64,000 nt of DNA from contig NZ_FWFY01000013.1 of NCBI RefSeq assembly GCF_900172345.1, positions 1 through 64,000 of the forward strand, given 5' to 3'. This document shows positions 43,355 through 64,000 of the stretch, in pieces (the stretch's first letter is position 1; each line of letters starts with the position of its first letter). This stretch comes from Limimaricola soesokkakensis (GTDB lineage: Bacteria > Pseudomonadota > Alphaproteobacteria > Rhodobacterales > Rhodobacteraceae). A model generated the notes under the pieces. It was not told where the DNA came from. It saw nothing but the letters and a program-made list of their open reading frames with translations, and searched no databases. The translations under genes and the position numbers were made by a program.

Positions 43355-43431
43355 GATACAACTTTCGCGACAACCGAACTTACTGTGAATTCTTTTGGAG
43401 GATATCCTTCACCCTTTCAAGAGGGAGGGAC

Positions 43432-43440
43432 TGTGGATAA
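43432..43440 (-). promoter_or_regulatory. Perfect DnaA box in the origin
   Basis: TGTGGATAA on the plus strand, that is TTATCCACA on the minus strand, an exact DnaA consensus. It lies 12 bp from the iteron array and 78 bp before the Rep start, as expected for an iteron-type oriV. Confidence 0.75.
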
Positions 43441-43451
43441 CTTCCAGTCTC

Positions 43452-43558
43452 GCCCCCGAGAACCTCACATCAAGGCCCCGGAAACCTCACCCTTCGCCCC
43501 GGAAACCTCATCCTTCGCCCCGAAAACCTCACCGCTTGCCCCGGTTTCCTCACATTTA
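43452..43558. repeat. Five iterons of about 21 bp (plasmid origin)
   Basis: Five tandem direct repeats with consensus GCCCCGGAAACCTCACCCTT. Units two to five start 21 bp apart (43475, 43496, 43517, 43538); the first is 22-23 bp upstream and slightly divergent. The core AACCTCA is kept in four copies and TTCCTCA in the last. These are probable binding sites for the adjacent Rep_3 protein, and with the DnaA box they define oriV. Flanking DNA is AT-richer. Confidence 0.92.
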
Positions 43559-43637
43559 CGATCAGAACTCCCTGATTTCATGAGCAAATTTCGCCCCTGA
43601 ATCTATGAATCTTGAATCCTGAAAGGATAGAAGGGCC

Positions 43638-43964
43638 TTACGCCCTCCCCTGCCCTTCAAAATGGGTCATCAAGATGTCCAGCATATCCGCGTATGTACG
43701 CCGGTCGGATTTGCAAAGAAGCTTGAAGCGCTCGATCGTATCGAGGGGTGCCTTGATGGAGATCTGGCCATCACGAATCTCTTGCCGGCTAGGCCAGCGC
43801 GCCGGTTGTGCCGCAGGCCCCGTGGCAGACGTCTCCTCTTGCCTGTCTAAAGATGAGGAATTCGGGGCCTCTGGAAGCAACTGCCTGGTCTTGCTCGGTG
43901 CCGGAGTGCGCGAGACTTCCGCTTCGAACTGCTTCAAGCGACTGAAATCAAGCGACTTGGGCAT
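43638..43964 (-). CDS. Small partition partner of ParA (RHH-type)
   Basis: A 108-aa protein beginning MPKSLDFSRLKQFEAEV with a disordered middle (about residues 20-65) and a C-terminal ribbon-helix-helix-like segment ISIKAPLDTIERFKLLCKSDRRTYADMLDILMTHFEG. Overlapping the end of parA by 17 bp, it has the position and build of the centromere-binding protein of type Ib partition systems. It would bind the repeats upstream of parA and stimulate ParA ATPase. The assignment is from architecture and context. Confidence 0.75.
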   Translation of the reverse strand: MPKSLDFSRLKQFEAEVSRTPAPSKTRQLLPEAPNSSSLDRQEETSATGPAAQPARWPSRQEIRDGQISIKAPLDTIERFKLLCKSDRRTYADMLDILMTHFEGQGRA

Positions 43965-44628
43965 TGTAAGCTTTCTCCAGCATATCAATCACTTCGGAGG
44001 CGAAGGCTTGAGCGTTATCAACCGCTTTTTCGATACCGTTCACTTCCGCAGGGTCGAGATCGCGCAAGCCGGCGCCGGCATTGTGCAGTGATGAAAACGC
44101 AGTCCGGCGATGCAACTGCGTGGCAAAGACCGGGGCTGCCGCCTTGAGTTCAGCTTGGATATGCCGCTCGAGCTTGCTTTTCACGGCAGCGGAGGTACGG
44201 GCGAAGAGGATGGCGGCCGGAATGTCGCGGCGACGCGCCCTGCCCTCCATCGCGACCTCGGCCAAGGTTTCGATGGCCGCATCCGCATCTTGTTGTTCCT
44301 CGCCCGCCGGGATGATCACGAGATCGGATTCGGCTATGGCAAAGGATGTGAGACGGCTCGCGGTTCCTTCCAGGTCGATCAGAACGAACGGAGCGCGGCC
44401 ACGAGCTGCGGCGATCTCATCCTGGATTTGTCGTTCCCCCGCACTGGCAACCACTTCGATTCCACGTGGGAGCGAAGCGAGTTGAGACCAGCGTGTCAGG
44501 CGGCGCGCCGGATCCGCGTCGATAATCACAACCTGGGTTCCCTGCGCAGCAAGTTCCGTTCCTAGAATGATGCACGATGTCGTCTTGCCAGCTCCGCCCT
44601 TTGAGCTGGCAAATGATACGGTAGGCAT
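43948..44628 (-). CDS. parA: ParA-family partition ATPase
   Basis: A 226-aa deviant Walker-type ATPase. Walker A is SSKGGAGKTT, A' is VVIIDADPARRL, and the Walker B region is FVLIDLEGTAS. The short form without an N-terminal DNA-binding domain is the type Ib class, which works with a small DNA-binding partner and keeps low-copy plasmids. It heads the par-rep cluster and has a repeat-rich 350-bp upstream region, the probable promoter and centromere. Confidence 0.95.
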   Translation of the reverse strand: MPTVSFASSKGGAGKTTSCIILGTELAAQGTQVVIIDADPARRLTRWSQLASLPRGIEVVASAGERQIQDEIAAARGRAPFVLIDLEGTASRLTSFAIAESDLVIIPAGEEQQDADAAIETLAEVAMEGRARRRDIPAAILFARTSAAVKSKLERHIQAELKAAAPVFATQLHRRTAFSSLHNAGAGLRDLDPAEVNGIEKAVDNAQAFASEVIDMLEKAYNAQVA

Positions 44629-50113: not shown

Positions 50114-52599
50114 TCGGTCGACGCGAGCTGCTCAAGGGTGCAGGCGCGGCGCTGGTGGGGATGGGGCCGGCCCGGAGCCTGGCGGCGACCCGCGTGGTGC
50201 CCAGCTACACCGTGCTGCGCGACATCACCGCCGGGACGCCGCCCGAGGTCCTGCGTGCGGTTCTGGAAACCTTTGAGCGCCAAGGCCTGCCTGTGACCTG
50301 TCTTGTCACGCTCGATGCCCCCGGGGCGGGAAGACTTTCTGCTGACAGCCCCGTCATCGATGTCCTGACCCAAGTTGCGGGTGCAGCGCCGGGGCTCGTG
50401 GAGATCGCGCCGCATGTCCACGAGCTGGCTACGCTTTCGAGCTACTTCCAGGCCCGACAGGCGGCCGAGGCGGTCGCGCAGCTCAAAGCCCTGCTGGGAG
50501 ATGCGGCAGCCGCCATACCGATCCGCTCGATCGCCTGCGATACGCCGCAGCAAGCGCAATCGCCGCAGGGCCTGCGCGGCGCTGGATTGCATACCGAGCT
50601 CCTGCTGCCCGAGGAAAGCGGCCCATTGCGGAGCGAGCGCTGGCTCGACGGCACCGTGCGCTTTCTGGGCGGCCGGGTCCTGACTTTGGACGATGCGCGC
50701 CAAGCCTATTGGGAGAGCGACACGGAACGCAGTCAGGTGCTTTGGACGCTATCGATGGCGCAACTCGCCGGCGACGCCCCGGCGCAGCTGTCAACCAAGG
50801 CGGCGGTCTTTGCGAGCCAGGCGCTGGCAGCCGAAGCGGTGCGCGGACTGGCGCACCTCACGCTGTCGGAGGCACAGCTGCGGGATGATTACGGCTACCG
50901 GCGGGATCTGCTGCTCCATCTCGTGACGCGCAGCGCGAACAGCCCGGCCTTCCAAGCCTTGACCACGGAACTCGACGCGCGGGGCATCGCTCATAGCTAT
51001 AGCCTGGTGCCCGAGGGAGCAGGGGGCGCTGATGGGATCCGGCTCAAGCTGATCCCGGGCCATGACCAGGGAAAGGCCGGGAGGGGGGTGCGCCTGTCGG
51101 ATACCTCCGTCGGGTCAGCGCAGAGCATCGTACTGCAACCCGGGGCAGGGGCCTTTCGAGGCCTGAGTGCGGAGAACGCGCTGGTACTGCCCGCACGCCT
51201 GCTGGCGGATCCGGAATCGATCTATGCGCTGGAGCAGGACCAAGAGGAAATCGAGGACAAGGTGCTGCTGGTCGATGCCGACCGTGTCCACAGAGGCGTT
51301 CTGCGGACTGCGCTGCTGCGCGGCTTGGAGCAGAGGCTTGCGCGCCCGGGCCGGCGCACGATCGCACTGCCGACGGCGCTGGAACGACTGCTGCCGCAGA
51401 GCCCGTATATCGGCCATCATCGGCGCACAGAGCGTTTCCGCGAAGGCGCGGGGCGCATGGTAGAAGCGGTGGCCCCCGCGGAACGCGCGGCGCTCATGGA
51501 GGATGCCCGCTGCGCTTGGCGCTACTTCTCCACCTGGACCAACCCGGTCACCGGGCTGTGCCCGGCCACCGTCTACAACGGAAAAGGTGGCCGACGGCTG
51601 CACGAGGCCGTCACCATGTGGGATGTGGGCAGTCACATCAACGCGCTCATCGCAGCGCATGATCTCGGTTTGATCGGGGCGGCCGAGTTCCAAGCGCGCA
51701 GCGCTCGGATCATGCCGCAGATCGTGGGCCGCCGCTACAACGGGCGCCTGCTGCCGCAAGGCTGGATCCGCACCGACCGGTCTCGCTGGGGGACCCGCGA
51801 CTTCGATGCCTGCGACGCAGGCCGGCTGCTGGCCGCGCTCTACGCGCTCGAGAACCACCCCGCCGCCAAGGCCCGGCCATCGGACATCGTGCAAGCCTAC
51901 GACCTCGCAGCGGTAATCCAGGCAGGCGAGATCCAGAACGTCACCGACGGCGTGTTCCACAGCTCCTATGGTTCGCATTGCGCGCATTACGCGGCCCACG
52001 CCTTCCGGATCTGGGGGTTCGACGCGCGCTCGCCCTATGAGGTGATGCGGGGGCGCTCGAGTGCCGACGGGCAGATGGCGCTCATCGAAGCGTCCGGCCT
52101 CATCGGCCCCTTGGGCGCCGAGCCGTTGCTTCTCGAGGCGGTCGAGCTCGGCATGTCGCCTGAGTCCGCCTACCTCGCCGACCTGCTCTTTGCTGCCCAG
52201 TTGGAGGAGTACGAGGAAACCGGCCGGCTCAAATGCGTGTCCGAATGCCCGATCGATCGCGAACCCTGGTTTCTCTATTCTGGCCTGCAGCTCGATGCAG
52301 ATGGGCGCCGTTGGGCGACCGATACGGTGAACGGACATGCCCGGCATCGTTCAGAGGCTTTTGCGGATGCCAATGCGGTGATTAGCAGCAAGGCGGCGTA
52401 TCTCTGGGCAGCTTGGCGACCGCATCCCCACAGCCAGCGTCTGCTCGAGTATGTCCGAGCGCGGGCTCGCCAAAAGGTGGGCTTCTCGCCGGGCATCTAC
52501 GAGGCGGACGATCGCGCCATGCCCGATTACAGTGACATCAACACAAACGCGATCATACTGCAGGCCATTGCTTATAAGGTAATTAATACAAGCGCTTGA
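50110..52599 (+). CDS. DUF3131-like secreted protein coupled to the synthase
   Basis: An 829-aa protein starting at a GTG overlapping the synthase stop. The N-terminus has a Tat-like signal (GRRELLKGAGAALVGMG). Residues about 30-450 include segments resembling a deacetylase-type barrel without clear catalytic residues. From about residue 460 a DUF3131-like domain appears: WRYFSTWTNPVTGLCPATVYN, MWDVGSHINALIAAHDLGLI, TRDFDACDAGRLLAALYAL and VFHSSYGSHCAHYAAHAFRIWG. DUF3131 proteins are often encoded with polysaccharide synthases and are predicted to have a glucoamylase-like fold. A periplasmic role in polymer handling is likely; activity unknown. Confidence 0.85.
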   Translation: MIGRRELLKGAGAALVGMGPARSLAATRVVPSYTVLRDITAGTPPEVLRAVLETFERQGLPVTCLVTLDAPGAGRLSADSPVIDVLTQVAGAAPGLVEIAPHVHELATLSSYFQARQAAEAVAQLKALLGDAAAAIPIRSIACDTPQQAQSPQGLRGAGLHTELLLPEESGPLRSERWLDGTVRFLGGRVLTLDDARQAYWESDTERSQVLWTLSMAQLAGDAPAQLSTKAAVFASQALAAEAVRGLAHLTLSEAQLRDDYGYRRDLLLHLVTRSANSPAFQALTTELDARGIAHSYSLVPEGAGGADGIRLKLIPGHDQGKAGRGVRLSDTSVGSAQSIVLQPGAGAFRGLSAENALVLPARLLADPESIYALEQDQEEIEDKVLLVDADRVHRGVLRTALLRGLEQRLARPGRRTIALPTALERLLPQSPYIGHHRRTERFREGAGRMVEAVAPAERAALMEDARCAWRYFSTWTNPVTGLCPATVYNGKGGRRLHEAVTMWDVGSHINALIAAHDLGLIGAAEFQARSARIMPQIVGRRYNGRLLPQGWIRTDRSRWGTRDFDACDAGRLLAALYALENHPAAKARPSDIVQAYDLAAVIQAGEIQNVTDGVFHSSYGSHCAHYAAHAFRIWGFDARSPYEVMRGRSSADGQMALIEASGLIGPLGAEPLLLEAVELGMSPESAYLADLLFAAQLEEYEETGRLKCVSECPIDREPWFLYSGLQLDADGRRWATDTVNGHARHRSEAFADANAVISSKAAYLWAAWRPHPHSQRLLEYVRARARQKVGFSPGIYEADDRAMPDYSDINTNAIILQAIAYKVINTSA

Positions 52600-52628
52600 T
52601 GTCTATAAAATTAAAATCGGCGCGAGCT

Positions 52629-53126
52629 TTATTGGTGCAGTCGAGGGTCAAGTGCAAAACGCTCCTGCTGCACATCATCGAAATGTCCTGCTGCTCGATC
52701 CGCATCGAAGATCAGGTTCCAGCTATGTCGGGAAACGGTCGATGGTACCAAGCAAAACAGGTGATCCTCCAAGAGCTGATCACCGAAAGCCTGCTGCCCT
52801 GGACCATGAGCTCCCGGGATTAGCCAGTTCGCGTTCGGCAAATCCTCGGCAAGAACGACATGAACGGTAGAGATGTCGATTACCCGGGCACAGGTCAGCA
52901 CATGTGGCGAGGTATCGAGCACCTTGAAGCCCTTATGGACGGCGACCTCCATGATTGCGGTTGAGGGGTCTACTGACGTGTAGACCGCACGCGACCCTCG
53001 GGAATTCCATCGGCCGCCGACGCGATACGATCCCTCACCGGTGTCCCAGCTGCCCGCGTGCCGTTCTTGATCGAGACGCCAAAACCGAAGCTCCCCCGTA
53101 CCGAGCGGGGGCGGCAATGGCGTCAC
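52629..53126 (-). CDS. RES-domain toxin (NAD+ phosphorylase family)
   Basis: A 165-aa RES-family toxin. Conserved positions are WRL near residue 17, the YRVGGRWNSRGSRAVYTS block (two Arg, Tyr, Ser) and AIMEVAVH with the Glu. Known RES toxins (MbcT, RES of Xre-RES systems) deplete NAD+ by phosphorolysis and stop growth. It follows its antitoxin with a 4-bp overlap. It is convergent to the DUF3131 gene. Confidence 0.94.
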   Translation of the reverse strand: MTPLPPPLGTGELRFWRLDQERHAGSWDTGEGSYRVGGRWNSRGSRAVYTSVDPSTAIMEVAVHKGFKVLDTSPHVLTCARVIDISTVHVVLAEDLPNANWLIPGAHGPGQQAFGDQLLEDHLFCLVPSTVSRHSWNLIFDADRAAGHFDDVQQERFALDPRLHQ

Positions 53127-53629
53127 GAATATACCCCATACTCGATACGCGTCAGGTAATCATCGACCGCTTCGGCTCCTGCGGTTGACATGAGCAGATC
53201 TATGGGTCGACGATTGTCGAGACCGATCGCAGGCTCGAGAAGCCATGCCTCCGCCGCGGCTTGCGTTCCAAGGACGTCAGTTGCCTTGGCGATGATCTCG
53301 GCGAACCTCCAGGCGCGGCTGCTTTGTTCGGGCGAAAGCGCTTTCTGCTTCACTTCCGACCTGCGGCGCTGCAGCGTTCGGATGCTGATCCCGATCGCCT
53401 TGGTCAACACGTCGCCGGTCGACAGAACCTGAACCCCGTCAACCAGATAGAACAGCGATTTCGAAGGAATTCCTTGAACGATCAGGTCATGCGCATCCAG
53501 GGGGCTACGGACATCGCGTTTCATGATTTTGCTGCCGCCCAAGAGGCGGTAGGCGCGGATCGTCTCATTCTCGACTGCGGCCGGCGCAGCGCGCCCGCTT
53601 CGCTCATTAGCCATGCTAATTGCCGTCAT
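53123..53629 (-). CDS. Xre/MbcA/ParS-type antitoxin of the RES toxin
   Basis: A 168-aa antitoxin. The N-terminal Xre-like part is VLTKAIGISIRTLQRRRSEVKQKALSPEQSSRAWR, and the C-terminal DUF2384 domain is FAEIIAKATDVLGTQAAAEAWLLEPAIGLDNRRPIDLLMSTAGAEAVDDYLTRIEYGVYS. It neutralises the RES toxin and represses the operon. GGAGG lies eight bases before the chosen ATG; a frame open further upstream lacks similarity. An inverted repeat covers the start region. Confidence 0.93.
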   Translation of the reverse strand: MTAISMANERSGRAAPAAVENETIRAYRLLGGSKIMKRDVRSPLDAHDLIVQGIPSKSLFYLVDGVQVLSTGDVLTKAIGISIRTLQRRRSEVKQKALSPEQSSRAWRFAEIIAKATDVLGTQAAAEAWLLEPAIGLDNRRPIDLLMSTAGAEAVDDYLTRIEYGVYS

Positions 53630-53668
53630 GGAATGGCCTCCGTCATGTGTCGTTATAATAGTGACGAC
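53606..53668 (-). promoter_or_regulatory. Operator candidates of the Xre-RES operon
   Basis: Two perfect inverted repeats flank the start codon: ATTAGC-N3-GCTAAT (53606-53620, just inside the gene) and GTCGT-N10-ACGAC (53649-53668, upstream) with TATAAT inside the spacer. They are plausible autoregulation sites and could also affect the divergent small gene. Confidence 0.48.
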
Positions 53669-53819
53669 TGTCGCAAAGTGTTTCAAGGTGAGTCCAGTTC
53701 GATGGAGGGCGCGACATCGCGTCACGCGGCGAACCAGAATGGTATTTTCGTGGTATGAGATCCGTTCCAAGCGACGACCATCGCTTGGGCACGCAAAGCA
53801 ACAACAACAGGAAATGCGC

Positions 53820-54074
53820 ATGCTAATGGATCCGACCTTCACCCACTGGACCGCCGTCTACCGTTCTGCCGGCGAAGATGAACCGACCGCCACCACGGCC
53901 GACTTCAGCGAGATGGGGGCGGGCGATCCGGTCGATGCGCGAGCGGCGAAGGCTCATTTCCGGACAGTACTCGGGCATGGGACGGAACTGCTGGAGCTCT
54001 ACCCATTCGACAATCCCGACGAGGCGCTCGAGACTTGGCGCGCGACGAACGCGCTCGAGGTCGCGGGGCTCTGA
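53820..54074 (+). CDS. Small hypothetical protein
   Basis: An 84-aa acidic soluble protein (TFTHWTAVYRSAGEDEPTATTADFSEMG, then a helical C-terminus). AGGAA lies six bases before the chosen ATG. No family recognised. It is divergent from the Xre-RES pair and isolated on its right side by IS and PIN remnants. Confidence 0.6.
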   Translation: MLMDPTFTHWTAVYRSAGEDEPTATTADFSEMGAGDPVDARAAKAHFRTVLGHGTELLELYPFDNPDEALETWRATNALEVAGL

Positions 54075-54124
54075 CGCCCCGCCGCCGGATCGATCAGGTG
54101 AGCGCGTCGTGGAGTTCGCCCAGC

Positions 54125-54147
54125 GACATGCGCCCTTGGCGCATGTC
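54125..54147. repeat. Perfect 10-bp inverted repeat
   Basis: GACATGCGCC-CTT-GGCGCATGTC, 50 bp after the small hypothetical gene. It may end that transcript (no T-run) or act as an operator. Confidence 0.4.
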
Positions 54148-54205
54148 GACCTGATCGATCTCGCGGGCGCTCGTAGCGAAGCAGGTCAGCAGGAAAGGTG
54201 AGATC

Positions 54206-54577
54206 CTATGAGAAGGGATTCCAGATCCGCAGCTGCCCCTCGACCAACTGGCCGTCATGCATGTCTTCGGACCACAGGGTCTCGCAGCCGGCGATCAGAG
54301 CCTAGGCCACGATCATGGCGTCGTAGACCGAGAAGTTGTAGCGTTCCTGCAGAGCCAAGCCGATATCGTGGGTATGCAGATCGAGATCGCACAGCCGGCA
54401 AAGCTGCCGAATACCGTGCAGGAACTCCTGCGCTTCGCCCTGATCCATACACGCCTTGCGTCGGCAGTTGACCAAGGCCTCATTCAGAACCTGAACGCTG
54501 ATCGTGCCCCCTCGTATCAGCAGTGCTTCGGCCTGATCCCGCTTGGGGCCATCGTCCAACAGGTAGAGATTAACATC
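54206..54577 (-). pseudogene. PIN-domain (VapC-like) toxin remnant
   Basis: Codons read NLYLLDDGPKRDQAEALLIRGGTISVQVLNEALVNCRRK, then CDLDLHTHDIGLALQERYNFSVYDAMIVA, an in-frame TAG, and ALIAGCETLWSEDMHDGQLVEGQLRIWNPFS. The usual PIN acidic residues and the final SEDM motif are recognisable. The first residues, including the opening FDTN, are missing where the TnpB element ends. Inactive. Confidence 0.68.
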
Positions 54578-55397
54578 TTCCCCCGGTCAAAGCCGGGGGA
54601 TTTTCGGAGGTCGCGAGGCCTCTTCCAGTTCTCGCTTCCCCGGAGAGCCAATGCCCTTCCTCCACGAGCATAGACGCCGTGTTCCGGCGCAGGATGTTGA
54701 TCGCAGCGTTGTGGTCGGCATGTGCGCGGTGGCCGCATGTGGTGCAGGCGAAAGCGGCTTGGCTCTTGCGGCTCTCCCTGTCCACGGCTCCGCAGGACGA
54801 ACACGTCTGCGAGGTATGCCGGGGGTCCACCTTGCATAGGTATCCCCCGCGTTCTTCAAGCTTGTAGGCCACGAGGGTCTCGAAGCTATGCCACCCCTGT
54901 TCGAGGATGGCGCGGTTCAAACCCGCCTTGGCCCGGACGTTCTTGCCCGGCGCATCGGCGGTTCCTGCAGCGCTCCGCGTCATGTTCTTCGTTTTGAGGT
55001 CCTCAAGGACGACCGTGCCAAAGCGGCGGGCCAGATCAAGTGTTACCCGGTGCTGCCAGTCCCGCCGGATGCGTCCTGCGCGTGCGGAGATGCGCGCCAC
55101 GCGGCGCAGCGCCTTCACCCGGCGGACAGACCCGCGCTTCCGGCGGGCTACGACCCGCTGGGCTTTCCGCTTTTTGCGGTTGAGCAGGCGCAGCTTGCCG
55201 GGGATGTTCAGGGCCTCGCCGCTCGACAGCATCAAGGAGCAGGTCACGCCCCGGTCTATACCGACCGAGGGCAGGCTGTTGACAGGAGTCTCGTGCTCGA
55301 TCTCGTTGGCGAAGGAGATGTGCCAGCCGGTCGGGTCGAGCGACTGAACTGGCCCCCGTTTCGACCGGACATGTGTGGATGCCTCCCTTGGCGCAAT
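54570..55397 (-). pseudogene. TnpB (IS200/IS605 family) C-terminal remnant
   Basis: About 275 codons without an N-terminus. The RuvC-like nuclease parts are intact: VGIDRGVTCSL (first Asp), VVLEDLKTKNM (Glu) and HADHNAAINIL (last Asp), and the zinc ribbon is TCSSCGAVDRES...CTTCGH. The visible start is a GTG at 55247, but the frame is open to 55397, right after a TGA, so the first part of the protein (helical and OB-like domains) is lost. The C-terminus reads through the right-end hairpin, as is usual in these elements. It cannot be a working RNA-guided nuclease. Confidence 0.87.
54579..54600. repeat. Right-end hairpin of the TnpB element
   Basis: An 8-bp stem TCCCCCGG/CCGGGGGA with a short loop, the usual subterminal hairpin of IS200/IS605 elements; it resembles the one near 35.74 kb. 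It adjoins the PIN remnant, marking the insertion border. Confidence 0.65.
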
Positions 55398-55443
55398 TCA
55401 TCTAGCAAGAGTGGCAGGCCAACCTCGAGCATAGACACAGTTG

Positions 55444-58203
55444 CTAAAGGATCAGGTCCCTAGCGCCGAAATCGTCGACGCCGTTCAGGACGATCCTGAT
55501 CTCCGCAGCTCGGTCGCGGTCGGTGTTGATTTCGAGGCGCGAGCGGTCGGTATCGAAGCGCACCTGTCCTGCTTGGGTGAAATCGGCGTCGCGTCCGATC
55601 CAGACCAATTCCTGCTGGCCGCCGGCGCGCCGGTTGCCGTCGATCGCCGACAGGTCTATGGCATCACCCTCGGCGCGATCGAGGTCCCGTATCGTATCCT
55701 GCCGCCGCCTGCCGATCCCGGCATCCCCCGTGCCGAACACGAAGGTATCGGCACCGCCATTGCCCCTGAGAACATCCCCTCCCTTGCCACCCGAGAGCAT
55801 GTCGTCGCCGTTGCCGCCGATCAACTTGTCGCGCCCGGTTCCGCCGATCATCCGGTCGTCGCCACTGCCACCTTTCAGGGCGTCGGCCCCGCCGCGGCCC
55901 AAAAGCGTGTCGTCTCCACTGCCGCCGACCAACCTGTCATTGCCGCCACCGCCGTCGATGCGGTCGTTGCCGCCCCGGCCCAGCAGCCTGTCATTGCCGC
56001 CAAACCCCGACAGGCCCTCGTCGGCGCGACTACCCCTGAGCACGTCGTTGCCGCCGCTGCCGCGATGGTCGTCGTCGACCAGCTCCGCCTGACCGCGAAG
56101 AACGCTGCCGGCAAGGTTGAGGTTGGCGGGCAGGCTCTGCTCCTGCAGCAGCAACGAAAAGGTCTCGACCGTCTCGACACTGAGATCGGAAAGCAGTTCG
56201 ACATTGACGGCCGCGCTCATCTGGCCCGGCAGGAGGCGGACCTGTCCCGCCGTCGCGACGTAATCGCGGCCTGCCTGTGCTGACCCATCGACGGTGCGGT
56301 AGCTGAGGGTCGTGACCGTGTCGAAGGCCTCCGACAGCCGCAGCTCGAACACCGCGAAGCCTTTCGCTCCGCCCGGCTCGACGGCGACGACGTCGGTCAC
56401 GTGGATCGCGCGGTCGAGATTGACGCCGTCGTCGTCCTGGATAAAGGCTGCGCCGATCAGCCGGTCCGCTCCACCGGCGAAGATCGCCCCGTCGAGGTCG
56501 AAGAGTTCGAAGGACAAGCTCTCGTCGGATTCGATATCGTTGTCGTGCCTCGCGCGGATCTGGATTTCCTTCGATGTCTCGCCCGGGGCGAAGGTGACGA
56601 CGTTTGCGACGGTCGGGAAGTCGATGTCCTGCGTCGCCGAGCCGGAACTGGTGCGGTAGCTCACCGTGACCGAATCCACGGCCGGTTCGGACAGCGTCAG
56701 GGTGAAGCGCACCACGCCGCCGAAGCCGGAACCGATGCTTTCGATTGCATCCGCGCCCTCGAGCGAGAGGACAGGCTGCCGGTCACCTCCGTCATCATCG
56801 AGGAGCCGCGCCGTTCCGACCAGCCCTGCCACCGACTGTCCCAGCCCGCTGGCCCGGCTTAACGCGAGGTGGAAGAACTCGCTAGGCTCGACGGTGCCGT
56901 CACCGGTCAGTCGCACCTCAACAGAGGCGCGGGTCTGCCCGGGGGCGAAGCGCAGCTGGCCCGAAGTTGAGACGTAATCGTCGCCCGCCGTGGCGCTTCC
57001 GTCGACGGTGGCGTAGTCGAACACCAACTCCTCGCTCGATGGCTGCGACAGAAGCACATCGAACCACGCGCTGCGCGGGGCGGAGTCGCCCTCGACGATG
57101 ACCGGCGAGGAGACGACCAGGGCCCTGCCGAGATTGACGCCGTCGTCATCGATGATGAAGGTGTTCTCGCGCAGCACCTTCGCGCCCCCTTCCAGCGTCG
57201 CGCCGACCGGATCGAAGAGCTCGATGCCAAAGCTTTCGTCGGTCTCGATGTCGTTGTCATGGCGCACGCGGATATCGACGAGCTTTCGCTGCTCGCCGGC
57301 CGCAAAGACCAATTCTCCGGCGAAATCCGGATAGTCGATGTCCTCTGTGCCACTCCGCGCCAACGACTTGTACTGCACGGAAACGGCGTCGGCCGCGGGC
57401 TCGGACAGGCTCAGCGCGAAGGTCACCATGCCGCCGAAGCCGGAACCGATGCTCTCCGGCGCATTGACCGCCTCCACCGAGATGACGGGCCGCCCATCGC
57501 CATCGTCATCGAGCAAGGTCGCCGTGCCCACCAGCCCGGCCCCCGTGGTGCCCAGATCCTGATGCGGGCTCAGCGCGAGATGAAAAAACTCGGATGCCTC
57601 GGACCGGTCGTCCGGCCGCAGGTCGACAAAGACGGACTTCTCGGTCTCGCCCGCGAAGAAGGCCAGTGTGCCCGTCTGAGCGACGTAGTCCTCACCCGCC
57701 CTGGCGCTGCCGTCGCGGGTGGCGTAGCTCAGTTCGATGGTCGAGACAGAGGGCTCGGACAGCCTGACATCGAAGCGCGCCCGCGAGGCGCCCCCGTCGC
57801 CCTCGACCAGAACCGGCGAGGAGACCGAGACCGCCCTGTCCAGCGCCGCGCCGTCGTCATCGAGAATGAAAGCATCCTGACGGAGCACGATCTGGTTGCC
57901 TTCGAATTCCGCCCCGACCGGGTTGAACAGCTCGATCGCCAAGGATTCGTCTATTTCCTCGAGATTGTCGTGCTGCACCCTGAATTCGATGGTCTTGATA
58001 CGCTCGCCGGGGGCGAATGTCAGGACGCCGTTTTGCGGACGAAAGTCCAGGGCATCGGTCGAACTTACGGCGATCGTGCGATAGGCGACGGTGGTCTGAT
58101 CGGCCGCCGGTTCGGACAGCGTCACGGTGAATACCACCGTTCCGCCAAAGCCCGAGCCCACGCTTTCGATCGCGTTCCCGGACGTCATGTTGATGAATGG
58201 CAC
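55444..58203 (-). CDS. Calx-beta / RTX-repeat secreted adhesin-like protein
   Basis: A 919-aa acidic protein. About five Calx-beta domains of some 120 residues repeat the pattern NAIESVGSGFGG...VTLSEPAAD...DFP...FAPGE...HDNDIE.DESL.IELFDPVGA...IDDDG and DGSA.AGEDYV. They are followed from about residue 740 by RTX calcium-binding nonapeptides (GGNDRLLGRGGNDRIDGGGGNDRL and more), then a C-terminal segment (DLDRAEGDAIDLSAI... DFGARDLIL) that is the probable type I secretion signal. No Sec signal. This build is typical of calcium-dependent surface or biofilm proteins. No secretion ABC genes are in the window, and no terminator was recognised in the 45 bp between its stop and the TnpB remnant. Confidence 0.94.
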   Translation of the reverse strand: MPFINMTSGNAIESVGSGFGGTVVFTVTLSEPAADQTTVAYRTIAVSSTDALDFRPQNGVLTFAPGERIKTIEFRVQHDNLEEIDESLAIELFNPVGAEFEGNQIVLRQDAFILDDDGAALDRAVSVSSPVLVEGDGGASRARFDVRLSEPSVSTIELSYATRDGSARAGEDYVAQTGTLAFFAGETEKSVFVDLRPDDRSEASEFFHLALSPHQDLGTTGAGLVGTATLLDDDGDGRPVISVEAVNAPESIGSGFGGMVTFALSLSEPAADAVSVQYKSLARSGTEDIDYPDFAGELVFAAGEQRKLVDIRVRHDNDIETDESFGIELFDPVGATLEGGAKVLRENTFIIDDDGVNLGRALVVSSPVIVEGDSAPRSAWFDVLLSQPSSEELVFDYATVDGSATAGDDYVSTSGQLRFAPGQTRASVEVRLTGDGTVEPSEFFHLALSRASGLGQSVAGLVGTARLLDDDGGDRQPVLSLEGADAIESIGSGFGGVVRFTLTLSEPAVDSVTVSYRTSSGSATQDIDFPTVANVVTFAPGETSKEIQIRARHDNDIESDESLSFELFDLDGAIFAGGADRLIGAAFIQDDDGVNLDRAIHVTDVVAVEPGGAKGFAVFELRLSEAFDTVTTLSYRTVDGSAQAGRDYVATAGQVRLLPGQMSAAVNVELLSDLSVETVETFSLLLQEQSLPANLNLAGSVLRGQAELVDDDHRGSGGNDVLRGSRADEGLSGFGGNDRLLGRGGNDRIDGGGGNDRLVGGSGDDTLLGRGGADALKGGSGDDRMIGGTGRDKLIGGNGDDMLSGGKGGDVLRGNGGADTFVFGTGDAGIGRRRQDTIRDLDRAEGDAIDLSAIDGNRRAGGQQELVWIGRDADFTQAGQVRFDTDRSRLEINTDRDRAAEIRIVLNGVDDFGARDLIL

Positions 58204-58969
58204 GTCAAATCCTCCAAGTATTATTTTGGAAATCGGGCGAGAGCAGTAGTTTATCCTTTTCCCATAGCCTCATCCCGCGTGATCGATCCCGATGATCCCA
58301 TAGCTCGAAAAGGGGGTCACGACGGCGGCAAGAGTATAAACTTCTCGGGTCTGGCGGTGGCATCTCACGCGGCGATGCAATGCTCGAATGCGTCGCCGCA
58401 GTCGGTCTTCGTATCGCTGTGAATCCGGTAATGATATCCGATCCGGAACATCCGGAATACTTAGCCATATTATTGCGTTGCGCCGAGGCTGTCGTTCTAG
58501 GACATGGCGGCGGAGCAGCCCTCGTTTCGCGGATATCTGATCTCGGGAACGGGAGTGACTGCCGTGACTCGCTCGGCTATGTGAGACACCCAAACGCGCT
58601 TTCCGCAGCGCCTTCACCAGAACTTCAGAAGCGGTGGACCTGTTTGCGGCAAATATCCCACTTCTTCTGCCGCGGCGGATCAGGCGCGCCATGGCTTCGA
58701 CGCGTAGGTTGAAAGGAATTCACTCGCAATTACGTTTTCTGAGGCGACCTTCCATAAGCCGCCTCAGGTATCATAATGACGCGGCAAGCGATATGCGGGT
58801 GACATCATGGAGCGAAAAAGAGCAGTCGAAAGGCAGCGAGGTTCGACAGGCCTTGAGTTCATAAGCCAGTTGAAAGCAATCGGCGCAAGCTTGACGAAGC
58901 GCGGCCTGACGTTCGGTTCCTATTTCTCGTCCATCGACTTGGAAGGAGGACATCACCACGGCACGGGAC
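58204..58969. other. Upstream region of the RTX gene, no firm gene
   Basis: About 760 bp. It must hold the adhesin promoter. Several short frames are present; one (58807-59007, plus) could encode a 66-aa protein, but no family is recognised and it overlaps the next gene. A strong AAGGAGG lies at 58943-58949. Confidence 0.35.
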
Positions 58970-59254
58970 TTGCGCAATCATTTCTTGGAGCGGCTGCGGA
59001 GAGCTGACGACACCCCGCAGATGGTGACCATGCGTGGACGTGGGGGAGAGAGCAGTCGCGCATATCTCATCCTGAGGGTGGAGAAGATGGCGGAGATCTT
59101 GCAGGTGGTGGAGAGCAAAGTTCCGCCGGTCGAAACCATCACGGACCGCATGCGGCGGATTCGGGGCGATATGGCGCTGCCTTCGGCCCAGCTCGCCCCT
59201 CCGCGGCCGCGCTCGGCCGTTCCTCGGCTCTCTACGAGTTCGATCGAAACCTAA
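58970..59254 (+). CDS. Phd/YefM-like antitoxin candidate
   Basis: A 94-aa frame. The stretch TARDLRNHFLERLRRADDTPQMVTMRGRGGESSRAYLILRVEKM resembles the Phd/YefM N-terminus (ARD-F...L...G..V.VTR.GR). The family start should be a few residues earlier, but only an ATC codon sits after the strong AAGGAGG; a TTG inside the motif is the first conventional start. The start codon may be mutated. It is followed by two small frames in tight coupling, but no toxin fold is recognised. Confidence 0.5.
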   Translation: MRNHFLERLRRADDTPQMVTMRGRGGESSRAYLILRVEKMAEILQVVESKVPPVETITDRMRRIRGDMALPSAQLAPPRPRSAVPRLSTSSIET

Positions 59255-59257
59255 TTT

Positions 59258-59359
59258 ATGGCATTCATTCTGACTGCGGCAGCGACCATGCCGAGGATCG
59301 AGGCCCGGCGAGGCGATCCGTTGAGCGATTGGATGAAGGAAGAGTACATTCGCCCATGA
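59258..59359 (+). CDS. Possible 33-aa leader peptide or fragment
   Basis: Short frame (MAFILTAAATMPRIEARRGD...) beginning 3 bp after the Phd-like stop and ending in an ATGA overlap with the next gene. It could be a translational coupler or the start of a damaged gene. Confidence 0.3.
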   Translation: MAFILTAAATMPRIEARRGDPLSDWMKEEYIRP

Positions 59360-59703
59360 TGAACGCGCCCGAGGACTACTCGGCCGGGCTGCGACAGGTT
59401 CAGGTCCAGTCGCTCGATGACATCTTCCTGCTGCCGATCTGGGGGTTCGACGAGGACTGGGCGCAGCACGAGGCGCTCGCTGAAACCAAGGACGGCAAGC
59501 TCCTCCAGTCGCGCCTCGAGCAGTTCGGGCCGGACGCCGCCAACCGCTGGTTCGACCTGGCCGTCGAGCACCGCGGCCTGAACGGGCTCACGTTGCAGGG
59601 CCGCCGCTCGGGTTCCGAGGTCGAGCAGCTGTGGCGCGCCAACGCCGCGATCATCGAAGGCATGGCCGCCTATGCGAAGTGCCCCGAGGTCGCCAACGCC
59701 TGA
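59356..59703 (+). CDS. Hypothetical protein following Phd-like gene
   Basis: A 115-aa acidic helical protein (SLDDIFLLPIWGFDEDWAQHEALAETKDGKLLQSRLEQFGPDAANRWFDLAVEHRGLNGL). No family recognised. The start is uncertain: ATGATG overlaps the stop of the short frame before it; a TTG nine codons upstream is also open. A strong terminator follows, so the gene is probably real and ends the cluster. Confidence 0.6.
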   Translation: MMNAPEDYSAGLRQVQVQSLDDIFLLPIWGFDEDWAQHEALAETKDGKLLQSRLEQFGPDAANRWFDLAVEHRGLNGLTLQGRRSGSEVEQLWRANAAIIEGMAAYAKCPEVANA

Positions 59704-59730
59704 GGCCATCGCCTCACCTGAAAGGAATTA

Positions 59731-59758
59731 GGCCCGCCGGGGATACCGGCGGGCCTTT
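59731..59758 (+). terminator. Intrinsic terminator
   Basis: Perfect 10-bp stem GGCCCGCCGG/CCGGCGGGCC with a GGATA loop followed by TTTCGATTCTTT. It lies 27 bp after the hypothetical gene's stop. Confidence 0.87.
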
Positions 59759-59826
59759 CGATTCTTTCTGGACAGGAAATTGCGCCTCTGCTCACGATGA
59801 GAGCGAGATTTTGATCGGTGATTTCC

Positions 59827-60945
59827 ATGTTCGATTTGGATGTAATGCAGGCTGAATTGCGCAGCCTGATTTATGGAGCTTTATTGAGGGAGAACGAGTG
59901 GGGCGCGTTCCTGGACCATCTCACCTCGCTTTTGCCGGACGCCAAAGCGACGCTCTTCTTTCACGACGCGAACCATCGCGCTGGCGCCTTCTCCATCACC
60001 TCGGGCGTCGACGACACCTTGAGCGCCGATTACGCCATCCACTATGCCCCGATGAACCCTTGGATGGAGGGAGCCACCAAGCGGCCAGTTGGCTTGGTGG
60101 TTCCGGATCAGCGCATGCTCGCGCGCGCCGAACTCCTGAAATCGGAGTTCTACAATGACTTCCTGCGTCCCCAAGGGGTCGACGGGGCGATTGGTGTCAC
60201 ATTGCATCGGGAAGGCTCGCACAATTCTCTGCTGAGCGTGATGTCATCCTCGGCCGAAACGCATGACGAAATCGGTGCGCAGCGTGCATTGCAGTCCATC
60301 GTTCCAGACCTGCAAAGGGCATTCACCTTTTACCGGAGGCGCTCATTTCCGATCTCCTCTGACGTTTCCGGAATTGCTGCCGATGACGGCGATTCGGGCC
60401 TCATCAGCGTCGGGCCGGGTCGGCGCATCCGTCGATGCAACAGGATCGCGGAAGGCATCCTGGCTTCCGGACATAGCCTCTACCAGGATGCGATGGGCCG
60501 TCTCTATTCCCGCGATCCCTCGCTGATCGAGTATCTCGATCGCTGCCTGCTGCTCTGGGGGCGGTCGCGGGACGATCTGCCGGTCCGAAGCTTCCTCTTG
60601 GGATCCGCCCCGGAGCTGCCGACCCGAGTGACCGTGATCGCCTGCATTTCGGACCGCGGGGAGCGCTTCTTCCGGGGCGCCGAGTGCCAGCTGATCGTCG
60701 AGCCCCCGCCCTCCCGCAAGGTGAGCATCCGCGACTTGCAGAAGTTCTATCGCCTGACCGACGCCGAAGCGCGCGTGTGCGCGGCCTTGGCTGCGGGTGC
60801 GACCATCCAGGAGATTGCGGCATCGCAGGGGGTCGGGATCGAGACGATCCGGACCCACCTGAGAAGCGCACGCCAGAAGACAGGGACGGATCGGCAGGCG
60901 GATCTCGTCTGGCTCGTGAACCGCCTGGCCGATCGGTTCGGCTGA
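59827..60945 (+). CDS. LuxR-family transcriptional regulator with N-terminal sensor-like domain
   Basis: A 372-aa protein. The C-terminal LuxR helix-turn-helix is FYRLTDAEARVCAALAAGATIQEIAASQGVGIETIRTHLRSARQKTG. The N-terminal about 290 residues look like a PAS/GAF-type sensor (LRENEWGAFLDHLTSLLPDAKATLFFHDANHR...) with no classic acyl-homoserine-lactone pocket or receiver domain. It is convergent with the alpha-oxoamine synthase, 2 bp between stops. ATG preceded by GGTGA is preferred; a GTG three codons earlier is possible. It may control the synthase through the palindrome upstream of that gene. Confidence 0.92.
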   Translation: MFDLDVMQAELRSLIYGALLRENEWGAFLDHLTSLLPDAKATLFFHDANHRAGAFSITSGVDDTLSADYAIHYAPMNPWMEGATKRPVGLVVPDQRMLARAELLKSEFYNDFLRPQGVDGAIGVTLHREGSHNSLLSVMSSSAETHDEIGAQRALQSIVPDLQRAFTFYRRRSFPISSDVSGIAADDGDSGLISVGPGRRIRRCNRIAEGILASGHSLYQDAMGRLYSRDPSLIEYLDRCLLLWGRSRDDLPVRSFLLGSAPELPTRVTVIACISDRGERFFRGAECQLIVEPPPSRKVSIRDLQKFYRLTDAEARVCAALAAGATIQEIAASQGVGIETIRTHLRSARQKTGTDRQADLVWLVNRLADRFG

Positions 60946-60947
60946 GG

Positions 60948-62246
60948 TCAGGTCGCGCAGGAGATCTCCTTCGAGATCCGGTCGCGCGCCGCCGCCGCGG
61001 CGCTGACGAAGCGGCCCACCTGTTCGAGATCGTGCTTCGCCATGACCTGCGCGCGCCAGCGGCAGGCGTTGCGGGCCACGGCCGGGTGTTCGACGAGGTT
61101 CACGAGTATCCCCGCCTCATGCATCTCGCGGGTCATGAGACGGCTCGTGCGGGCGTCGCCGAGATAGATCGGCACGATCGCCGTGGGCTGCCCGCCGACC
61201 TTGAACCCCGCGTCCTTGAACGCGGACCGGAGCGCCACCGAACTGGCGAGCAGCTGGCCGCGCAGCTCCGCGCCCTCCTCGCCTTGGACGATATCGAGGG
61301 CTGCGAGCGCGATGGCGGCCTGGACGGGCGAGATGGCGTTCGAGAAGAGCAGCGGCCCGCAATGCCCGCGCAGCATCAGCTTCATCGCGCGATGGTTGGA
61401 GGCGACGAACCCGCCATTCGTGGCGAAGGTCTTCGAGAACGAGCCCATCACGATGTCGACCTGACCGACCAGGTTCATGAGCTCGAGATAGCCCCGCCCC
61501 GTCGGCCCGATCGCGCCGAGGTCATGCGCGACATCGACCAACAGCGTCGCGCCGTGCCGCCGGCATAGGGCCTGAAGCTCCCGGAGGTTGGGGACGTCGC
61601 TGTCCATGGAGAAGACAGTCTCGGTCACCACCAGGATGCCGGCGTCAGGATTTTCGTCGCGGATGCGCGTCAGGCGCCGCGCCACGGCGTCGTTCGACAG
61701 GTGCGGGAAGGCATGGACGTTTCGCGTGGCGTTGCGGGCGCCCTCCTGCAAGCAGGCATGGGACAGGCAATCGATCACCACATGATCGTCAGGGCGCACT
61801 AGGGTCTTCACGATGCCATAGCCCGCGCCCCACCCCGTCGGGAAGACCGTGCAGTCGGAGTAGCCGAGAAAAGCGGCAAGGCGACGTTCCAGCTCCTCGG
61901 AAAGCGCCGTGCATCCCATCAGTGCGCTGGAGCCTGCGCTGTGGACCCCGAACTCATTGATCGCATTCCGGGCGGCCTCGGCGATCGCCGGGTGGGAGGA
62001 CAGGTTGAGGTAGTCCTGGGATGCGAAGTTCGGCCCCTCGACGACGCGCCCGCAGCGAAGGCGGGACTGCGCCAGCGTCCCGGTGCGGGTGAGGGCGACC
62101 TTGCAGTAGGGATCGACGCCCCTCCCCATCCGAGCATCGAACCAGTCCTGATGTGCATCCCACCGAGCCAGGAGGTCGGGGCCCTTCGCGGAGATGTAAT
62201 CGGCGAGCGTTCCTGAAAATGCGGCGTTGCCGGAACCATCAAACAT
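60948..62246 (-). CDS. Alpha-oxoamine synthase-like PLP enzyme (KBL/BioF/CqsA family)
   Basis: A 432-aa fold-type I PLP enzyme. Motifs: FASQDYLNLSSHPAIAEAA, FGVHSAGSSALMGCTALSEELERRLAAFLGY, DCLSHACLQEGAR (PLP-stacking His), VDVAHDLGAIGPTGRG (Asp), and the PLP Lys in MGSFSKTFATNGGF. The family condenses an amino acid with an acyl-CoA; members make biotin precursors, glycine, delta-aminolevulinate, sphinganine or signals such as CAI-1 (CqsA). No biotin or tdh genes are nearby, and the Cys-containing VHSAGSSALMGC motif differs from BioF. Function is therefore open. Confidence 0.93.
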   Translation of the reverse strand: MFDGSGNAAFSGTLADYISAKGPDLLARWDAHQDWFDARMGRGVDPYCKVALTRTGTLAQSRLRCGRVVEGPNFASQDYLNLSSHPAIAEAARNAINEFGVHSAGSSALMGCTALSEELERRLAAFLGYSDCTVFPTGWGAGYGIVKTLVRPDDHVVIDCLSHACLQEGARNATRNVHAFPHLSNDAVARRLTRIRDENPDAGILVVTETVFSMDSDVPNLRELQALCRRHGATLLVDVAHDLGAIGPTGRGYLELMNLVGQVDIVMGSFSKTFATNGGFVASNHRAMKLMLRGHCGPLLFSNAISPVQAAIALAALDIVQGEEGAELRGQLLASSVALRSAFKDAGFKVGGQPTAIVPIYLGDARTSRLMTREMHEAGILVNLVEHPAVARNACRWRAQVMAKHDLEQVGRFVSAAAAARDRISKEISCAT

Positions 62247-62305
62247 GCGCGTCCTCGCTACCTTAAAGATGTCGTCGAGGAGGACGCTGCCTCGCGTTGT
62301 TGTGC

Positions 62306-62335
62306 CCTGTCCTCACCCGATCGGGTGAGGACAGG
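62306..62335. promoter_or_regulatory. Perfect 30-bp palindrome upstream of the oxoamine synthase
   Basis: Arms CCTGTCCTCACCCGA, no mismatch, no spacer, 59 bp before the synthase start. A gap-free 15-bp-arm palindrome with CT...AG-type ends fits a dimeric LuxR-type operator. No T-run follows on either strand, so it is not a terminator. Confidence 0.62.
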
Positions 62336-62405
62336 CGAGTAGACTCGCGGCTAGGCCTTGGGAGCGTGCCATGCGCGAGGTGCCGGTTTCGAGTGGACGA
62401 GTTTA

Positions 62406-62430
62406 AGGCCGCCCTCTGCGAGGGCGGCCT
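62406..62430 (-). terminator. Hairpin after the frameshifted hypothetical
   Basis: A 10-bp stem AGGCCGCCCT/AGGGCGGCCT, 35 bp after the stop of the minus-strand remnant; TTAAAC follows. On the plus strand CTCTCGTTTT follows, so it could serve either side. Confidence 0.5.
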
Positions 62431-62465
62431 CTCTCGTTTTCGCAAAGGTTCGGACGGATCCCTTG

Positions 62466-62932
62466 TCAGCGCTTCGCCAGCCGGTAGCTCTCGTGCGTCC
62501 CGTCCGTCCGCATCTCCAGCGCACCTTCCCGGCACATTGTCGCGAGCAGGCTCTTGAGGCTCGTGAGGAGCGATCTCCGCGACGCGTAGCCCGCTTCGTC
62601 TGCGATCAGTTCCGCGAGTTCGACATGGGTCATCCATGCCTTCGGGTCGATGCCGAGCGCGGTGCGGACAAGGTTGCGGCGGATCTCGGTAGAAGCATTG
62701 CCGCCTCCCCCGCCGGTCGGCTTGCGCGTTGCGGCCCGGCGCCCTTCCTGGCCTCTGCGAAAGCGGCATCCTTCGGCGCCTCCGTGCCGGCCATGCCGCG
62801 CAGGGCCGGCAGGACCGGCAGAGCGCCGTCGATGAGATGCACGGCCCCGTCATGGACGAGTGTCTTGTCGACCATGTCGGACGTAATCCGGATGCTGCGC
62901 AGCTCGCCGGTGACAAGGTGCATTGCGATCAA
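62466..62932 (-). pseudogene. Frameshifted hypothetical gene
   Basis: The first part reads MIAMHLVTGELRSIRITSDMVDKTLVHDGAVHLIDGALPVLPALRG; after about 62720 the coding pattern continues in another frame: STEIRRNLVRTALGIDPKAWMTHVELAELIADEAGYASRRSLLTSLKSLL...ESYRLAKR. The second part resembles a small winged-helix fold. Family unknown. Followed by a hairpin. Confidence 0.45.
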
Positions 62933-62947
62933 ATACCACTGTCTCAG

Positions 62948-63247
62948 TCACGATCGTCGATGTCTTCGCCCAGCATTCCGGCCCGCCGCGCCCGCTCGGA
63001 GGTACGCGACCGAGGACGTCGCCCACTTGGCACGCCCCTGCGGCATCGGCTCGCGCATCGCCTCGAGCCGCGCCGCGATCTCCTTCAGCGTGATCTCGGG
63101 CGCCGAGCTCTTGATGCCTGCGATGATCGCAAGCAAACGGTCGTCCTTCTGCGCGGGCGGGGCGCGGTCGAGCACTACACTGTCCAGCAGCCCGTCCTTC
63201 ACGAAGCGCCCCGCCGCGCGCCGCAGCCGCTCGACTGTCCAAGGCTT
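62948..63247 (-). pseudogene. Serine-recombinase C-terminal remnant
   Basis: About 100 codons (KPWTVERLRRAAGRFVKDGLLDSVVLDRAPP, DDRLLAIIAGIKSSAPEITLKEIAARLEAMREPMPQGRAKWATSSVAYL) resemble the C-terminal part of plasmid-borne resolvase/invertase-type recombinases. The catalytic N-terminal domain is absent and the end is out of frame. Confidence 0.55.
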
Positions 63248-63406
63248 TGCGCCCGGCGCGGATGATGTGGCCGCGATCCGAGCCGGTGCGCTCGATCGCT
63301 GGCAGGCTCGGCCTGAAGCCTTGAACGGCTTTGCCGATGCAGAAGGCAAGCGGCTGACAGTTGCGGCTCGGCTTGGAGGTCGAAAAAAACCTTGGGGTGG
63401 TCTCCT

Positions 63407-63439
63407 GAAAAAAAAGCCCGCCATGAAAAATGGCGAGCT
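63407..63439 (-). terminator. Intrinsic terminator without an identified upstream gene
   Basis: A 10-bp stem (AGCCCGCCAT with one mismatch), loop GAAAA, followed on the minus strand by eight T. A typical terminator, but no intact minus-strand gene lies just upstream, so its original gene has probably been lost. Confidence 0.75.
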
Positions 63440-64000
63440 AGAAAAGGGGGGAGGATGCTTCAGGCAAGCATCCCTGATACGCGAGTAACCATTCGCGCAG
63501 TCCCGCATAGCGGTAGTTTGTGGGGGGTCAATGCTTAACGCCTGATCTACGGAGATTTTCGGTAGAGTGAGGCGGATGCAGCATCCTACTGCTCCGGCCT
63601 TATGACTGCCCCCCGGTGTTCAGCCGTGGTGTGAATGGCCTGCGTTTTTTAAGACGCCTTCGTGCCTCAGGTTCTGCTGCCGCTCGAACTCGAGGGGCGA
63701 CAGCATATCGTTTCGTGCGCGCTTGCACTTTGGGGTGCAAATGCAGCTGCGCGGCGATGATCACTGTTGCGCGCGTGTCGCCAGCCCTGCGGAGCCGAGC
63801 CGAGCCGCGCAACGGGCCAGGTGTCCTTGCTGAATGAGGGCTAGAAAGTGCGTTCCACATAGGTGAGTGGCTTCTATCCAAATCTATACTGCATGACAAA
63901 TCGATCGTTTGAAAAGACCGGCAAAAGGCGCGCAGCCTTGGCGGAGACGATAGGGAAGGGAAGACCGAGGAGCCCGATCCCCTTGCTCATAAGGACGCGG
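63440..64000. other. Right end of window, no firm gene
   Basis: No supported intact gene. An IS3 tail fragment lies at 63645-63703. A plus-strand frame from an ATG at 63893 runs off the window (36 codons, basic, no ribosome site) and cannot be judged. Confidence 0.35.
63645..63703 (-). pseudogene. IS3-family transposase tail fragment
   Basis: About 20 codons read RNDMLSPLEFERQQNLRHEGV, the typical C-terminus of another IS3-family orfB. No further part of the element was recognised in the window. Confidence 0.45.

Follow-up and report, generated by a model that had tools for sequence, protein, structure and literature searches.

The locus described here raises the question of why a gene for an alpha-oxoamine synthase (AOS) lies tail to tail with the gene for a LuxR-type regulator, and what the perfect palindrome in front of the synthase is for. 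Both genes are found in a 64,000-nucleotide stretch of Limimaricola soesokkakensis DNA (called the window below; C30:1-64000), in which the following elements carry the argument.

59827..60945, plus strand: LuxR-type one-component regulator with a GerE helix-turn-helix (HTH), 372 aa; an alternative GTG start at 59818 gives 375 aa
60946..60947, no strand: 2-bp gap between the convergent stop codons
60948..62246, minus strand: AOS, 432 aa, with a match to Pfam Aminotran_1_2 at 137 bits
62306..62335, no strand: perfect 30-bp palindrome of 15+15 bases, fully paired and without a spacer, 59 bp upstream of the synthase ATG
62313..62328, no strand: core of the palindrome, TCACC-N6-GGTGA, an exact motif that recurs next to further members of the regulator family

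An earlier note had reported a 432-aa AOS gene that converges with a LuxR-type regulator gene across 2 bp, as well as a gap-free 30-bp palindrome, all of which the reading frames and the sequence bear out; both genes are open frames. We regard it as rather likely that the synthase is an accessory aminoketone synthase under direct control of the adjacent regulator via the palindrome. Since the motif of the regulator family sits, in the form of a palindrome, 59 bp upstream of the synthase, direct control is the most likely relation between the two genes.

At the base composition of the window, 1.3e-4 such palindromes are expected by chance per 64 kb, and 60 Markov-simulated windows produced arms of up to 11 bases compared to 15 in the real one. 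When up to 3 mismatches were allowed, the central 20 bp of the palindrome did not match anywhere else in the host assembly. The 400-bp flanks of 22 further regulator-family genes were examined for the core, ten of these genes having been fetched after the motif had been conceived. The 22 comprise 17 taken from the 123 plasmid records that match the regulator (82 of the 123 being Rhizobium; Salipiger is among the 17) as well as genomes G963, G107, G273, G046 and G980; regulator starts in unannotated records are estimates, as are the synthase starts of G980a, G966, G986 and G1213 used below. TCACC-N6-GGTGA is present in six of the 22 flanks, namely those of G273, Phyllobacterium, two S. meliloti, Sinorhizobium C101 and Nitratireductor (sites, not in this order, at L124:2629, L126:1352, L132:1858, L137:1369, L139:1373 and L026:3288). 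The site lies 58 bp past the regulator 3' end in G273, 36 bp past it and before a response-regulator gene in Phyllobacterium, approximately 94-115 bp upstream of the assumed regulator start in the two S. meliloti and in Sinorhizobium C101, and 47 bp upstream of the regulator in Nitratireductor. The 19 other orders of the half-site letters at N6 spacing were found in none of the 22 flanks. Among 13,312 combinations (1024 half-sites x 13 spacers) the motif ranks first with its six matches, and the next combinations, with five each, are a shifted reading of the same motif and one limited to close Rhizobium rows. It is absent from 400 kb of host contig C18, and across all loci compared the sole further copies are found at window positions 4855-4870 and in L061.

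The palindrome is very probably an operator of the regulator family, and TCACC-N6-GGTGA is a possible general operator of this family in rhizobia and relatives. Direct LuxR control, as proposed in the earlier note, gains support from the recurrence of the palindrome core beside regulator relatives. Mechanistically, members of the family would probably bind TCACC-N6-GGTGA inverted repeats near their own gene, and the window regulator, as a dimer at the extended 30-bp palindrome, would control transcription of the synthase.

Several observations weigh against this view. The motif was derived first from the palindrome and next noticed upstream of an S. meliloti regulator homolog, in the form TCACCCCGCGGGGTGA, before it was tested. 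Because three of the six matches come from one Sinorhizobium group, they amount to four lineages, and of the ten later-fetched members three carry the motif, two of them Sinorhizobium. It is missing within 400 bp of 16 of the 22 family members, including the nearest, G963 and G107, and from the window regulator's own flanks. The expectation that the palindrome would recur in homologous synthase promoters failed, as ten other such promoters contain neither palindrome nor core. The G963 and G107 regulators have CTYAC-N5-GTRAG repeats upstream of the gene, which had been our first operator idea and fit the palindrome more poorly (spacing 5, not 8). As background, these repeats occur twice in 400 kb of host DNA; across 943 kb of loci there were 7 places, overlapping copies counted, and 9, two of them in the host, once more loci had been added. 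They may represent a variant site with 3 bp less, given that spacing shifts occur among LuxR-type proteins, with VqmA sites of the forms GG-N6-CC and GG-N9-CC described in PMC8284805. An argument built on the recognition helix (R-x-H-L) was dropped, as G273 has Q there yet carries the TCACC site.

The window regulator alone yields a weak GerE match (20.7 bits, just under the cut-off of 23.5). All six members of the regulator alignment match GerE at E values up to 1, and a profile of these six sequences finds the HTH parts of LuxR/NarL proteins in solved chains. By these matches the protein is a LuxR-type regulator with a C-terminal GerE HTH. In line with the earlier note, family searches detected neither an acyl-homoserine lactone (AHL)-binding nor a receiver domain, and residues 1-300 gave zero Pfam family matches. 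Compared to LuxI/LuxR systems, the GerE-type HTH is shared and the AHL-binding domain is not found; LuxI itself was not searched for.

The synthase has the hallmarks of the AOS superfamily, i.e. an aminotransferase class I/II domain, the lysine for pyridoxal phosphate (PLP) and the conserved Asp/His. Lys272, Asp238, His241 and His163 occupy the conserved PLP-site positions, and we take their catalytic roles from what is generally known of the family. From its family, the enzyme would be expected to form an alpha-aminoketone by condensing an amino acid and an acyl thioester. Its best matches among sequences of solved structures are KBL and serine palmitoyltransferase (SPT). It shares fold family and PLP residues with BioF, KBL, HemA and SPT, but misses every NCBIfam equivalog cut-off (bioF 274.7/426.45, SPT 255.2/500, KBL 246.3/460 and ALAS 171.7/338.55 bits), and the His which these enzymes have before 'xxLE' is replaced in the clade of the window synthase. 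The host genome holds four further AOS genes. One KBL and two HemA exceed their cut-offs; the fourth, a BioF-like gene, falls under the cut-off of 426 at 332.7 bits yet directly adjoins bioB. We therefore rejected the window gene as the host's BioF, KBL or HemA, for which there are separate genes, and count it as a fifth, accessory AOS. It is, on this evidence, an accessory, non-housekeeping and apparently intact AOS, as the earlier note had supposed in setting it apart from plain BioF/KBL enzymes. The absence of a biotin, tdh or heme context, likewise noted before, holds locally, with such enzymes encoded elsewhere in the genome.

Membership of the synthase in CqsA/LqsA was rejected. With 185.6-186.1 bits the synthase stays far under the curated cut-off of 428 of the CqsA/LqsA model NF005526. 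In a tree of 36 rows, for which over-long N-termini had been trimmed, the 10 CqsA/LqsA references entered (out of 15) form their own group with support of 100/100, from which the window synthase is excluded. It falls into a 15-row AOS clade (100/99) apart from these references and from the housekeeping rows. Herein the window and Salipiger synthases pair (97/93) within a 7-row group (99/97) that also holds the rows linked to BTAD/TPR proteins and G980a.

Relatives of the synthase are few. At E 1e-100 it was found in 2 of 295 genomes of the family and at E 1e-80 in 4 of 390 genomes of the order, and a five-row profile at E 1e-100 matched in 7 of 395 family and 3 of 200 class genomes, the own genome being included in each count. 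Beyond the class, the search covered plasmid records, with best matches in Salipiger (57%), Pseudorhodobacter turbinis (50%) and Streptomyces clavuligerus (40%), and one scan of genome contigs; among the matches listed for the latter, two BioF-type genes of uncultured bacteria were considered as candidates and set aside. Of 8 genomes of the genus, a nucleotide search, which a 55%-identical synthase could escape, gave matches in 2, namely in the host and, solely within the regulator gene, in G963; among congeners, a protein search for the synthase is documented for G107. The window synthase is, as judged from tree and searches, a member of an unnamed AOS clade that is rare in the genomes searched. 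The literature matches listed contained no report of this AOS lineage or of the operator, the operator itself not having been used as a search name.

A gene for a regulator or kinase directly adjoins the synthase in 7 of 11 regulator-type loci (window, Salipiger, G980a, G967, G048, P. turbinis and G1204), a count from which G980b, G473, G553 and S. clavuligerus were left out, and in 7 of 15 once the biosynthesis-like branch is added. With base rates of 0.14-0.19, judged by eye from 99 Salipiger genes, a rough binomial P for 7/11 lies between 2e-4 and 1.4e-3; these values are optimistic because the loci are related and the neighbour counts thus not independent. LuxR-type genes lie directly beside the two closest synthase homologs. 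In Salipiger this gene precedes the synthase by 72 bp on the same strand; in G980 it is likewise upstream on the same strand, its product having no Pfam HTH match of its own and being 25-36% identical to the others. In G048, P. turbinis and G1204 a membrane kinase and a receiver adjoin the synthase, and the G048 receiver protein bears GGDEF and EAL. The loci which combine synthase, membrane sensor kinase and receiver are L016:8878-13556, L030:9986-13366 and L101:69-3982, and a simple hydropathy scan gave 3-5 hydrophobic stretches in the sensor part of these kinases. A BTAD protein is encoded two genes from the synthase in G474, and TPR proteins are adjacent in G967 and farther off in G966 and G986; the latter proteins have no BTAD match of their own and were grouped with BTAD by judgement. 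When 11 rows are labelled LuxR, BTAD/TPR, kinase or none, the tree requires 3 changes, the minimum for four labels.

Two members of the clade stand apart. The open-frame proteins at L092:9012-10298 (G967) and L093 ~9009-10580 (G986) have lost the PLP lysine (K to R and K to M, respectively) and the stacking histidine, and are apparent pseudoenzymes. The TPR-type regulator is adjacent to the lysine-less synthase in G967 and 4.3 kb away in G986. In two genomes, YcaO, a TPR-type regulator and a 132-aa protein accompany the synthase (L091:2115-6788 and L092:8277-13424), and in L092 and L023 the synthase is immediately preceded by an M15 peptidase gene.

A signalling role of the product is advanced with clearly less confidence than direct control. 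The proposal, a tentative one, is that the product is the ligand of the regulator and acts between cells. It draws on the VqmA-DPO system (a one-component LuxR-type receptor and DPO, a pyrazine derived from aminoacetone), on the kinase-linked relatives and on the pairing of synthase and sensor genes in Cqs/Lqs systems, where, according to PMC3376566, these genes lie together. By analogy to the sensing of DPO by VqmA, the ~300-residue N-terminal part of the regulator may sense the aminoketone or a pyrazine-like derivative. The likeness extends to a cytoplasmic HTH receptor and a signal built from an alpha-aminoketone (PMC12930378) and to the palindromic nature of the VqmA sites cited above. As differences, VqmA, with ~250 aa in its PDB chains, has an N-terminal PAS domain according to PMC8284805, while the window regulator has ~300 residues without a Pfam match before the HTH, and DPO is made via Tdh, no AOS and no dedicated synthase being involved in the account given in PMC12930378. 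CqsA-CqsS and LqsA-LqsS resemble the present loci in having an AOS-superfamily synthase beside a signal-transduction gene, most closely at L016, L030 and L101 with their membrane kinase and receiver, but differ from the window in that the regulator is a one-component protein and the synthase, at ~186 bits versus 428, lies outside their clade. The N-terminal parts of the L016 and L030 kinases could not be aligned with those of the kinases beside NF005526 matches (local E 0.13 over 18 columns), and we rejected them as CqsS/LqsS; a global alignment to CqsS/LqsS-type kinases covers 262 residues at E 2e-10 and includes the shared histidine box. The earlier statement that no CqsS or LqsS is present stands for the neighbours of the window pair; genome-wide, the G048 kinase and not a true CqsS or LqsS served as query, and its 16 host matches all start at a residue of at least 172.

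A broader version, which we hold to be possible though doubtful, is that one AOS lineage forms aminoketone signalling cassettes with exchangeable receptors, be it a one-component LuxR-type protein, a membrane kinase with receiver (GGDEF-EAL output in G048) or a BTAD/TPR-type protein, including the lysine-less G967 and G986 synthases as perhaps turned into sensors; the window LuxR-type protein would have captured the synthase via its family operator and would sense the product. Capture of a synthase by a pre-existing regulator is as possible as a dedicated circuit. Because the branches of G980a (85/73) and of the BTAD/TPR group (85/32) are weak, the LuxR-linked synthases are not established as one clade, and G1213 has no regulator among its synthase neighbours, both of which count against the explanation preferred here.

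The strongest competing explanation, to which we assign a substantial chance somewhat short of even, shares the control step and differs in the role of the product: the AOS would make a building block or an antibiotic-like metabolite, and the regulator would answer another cue. Related AOS genes lie beside YcaO in G966 and G967, and in G980 (L090:6635-11721) a LuxR-type regulator, an AOS, a nitroreductase and a second AOS follow one another in one direction. Such neighbours suggest specialised metabolism, a further point against the explanation preferred here, and the clusters of G473, G553 and S. clavuligerus look biosynthetic by eye. The 4-kb stretches around the motif-bearing regulators of Phyllobacterium and Nitratireductor contain no AOS by annotation (L124, L137), so the ancestral ligand of the regulator need not be an AOS product; tblastn of the synthase found none in the L026 stretch either. 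However, no other biosynthetic gene adjoins the window synthase, and three loci pair an AOS with a sensor kinase and receiver.

Improbable by comparison is that the two genes are chance neighbours, with a resident regulator controlling something else and a synthase that arrived separately. The congeners G963 and G107 keep regulator orthologs (52-53% and 42% identical, respectively) without an adjacent synthase, the regulator flanks share parts with G963, an IS605-type transposase lies nearby and the regulator family is common on rhizobial plasmids. The expected conserved synteny was found in a loose form, i.e. LuxR-type genes beside the two closest synthase homologs, which speaks against chance; in its strict form it fails, as no orthologous regulator was found beside an orthologous synthase elsewhere, the window regulator being 27% identical to that of Salipiger and 25% to that of G980, which is itself closer (36%) to a different Salipiger regulator. 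A coincidental neighbourhood also leaves aside that the palindrome before the synthase contains the motif of the regulator's relatives. Equally improbable is that the palindrome works as a hairpin in the leader RNA of the synthase, or that it is the site of a different factor, since copies of the motif with differing central bases occur near the regulator's relatives, both upstream and downstream of genes, and no T-run follows the palindrome on the minus strand (which also led us to reject it as a terminator), even though minus-strand RNA folds there with a 12-bp stem (z -4.05 for the 161-nt region) and the ten homologous promoters are devoid of the palindrome.

With these results, a regulator family common on alphaproteobacterial plasmids gains a predicted operator, TCACC-N6-GGTGA, and one of its members has this site before a spare aminoketone synthase. 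Should the product also be the ligand, a one-component LuxR-type protein would be responding to what an AOS makes, and one synthase lineage would be wired to unrelated receptors. Even without signalling, it is useful to have the predicted operator and an unnamed clade of AOS in which two members are apparent pseudoenzymes.

The host assembly comprises 3.94 Mb in 43 contigs, contig C30 having 88,146 bases. A Rep3 initiator and a ParA-like protein are encoded at window positions 42467-44628, and the G+C content of the window is 61.4% compared to 67.4% in 400 kb of host contig C18, from which we conclude that C30 is probably a plasmid. It also carries chain-length and glycosyltransferase (polysaccharide) genes. 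A tRNA-linked insertion was rejected, with zero tRNA genes within 52000-64000. Two terminator-like hairpins flank the gene pair.

59730..59756, minus strand: hairpin with an 11-bp stem and a 5-nt loop, upstream of the regulator
62406..62430, plus strand: hairpin with an 11-bp stem, a 3-nt loop and a T-rich tail, past the palindrome and pointing away from the synthase

A weak match to the small RNA family mmgR/suhB (RF00519; 27.9 bits versus a gathering threshold of 41, E 0.018) at 63401-63476 on the minus strand overlaps a terminator-like hairpin. Near the regulator, a Calx-beta/RTX-repeat protein is encoded on the minus strand at 55444-58203, and in G963 a large repetitive protein, VCBS-like by eye, is encoded convergently with the regulator (L077:8733-12461, minus strand).

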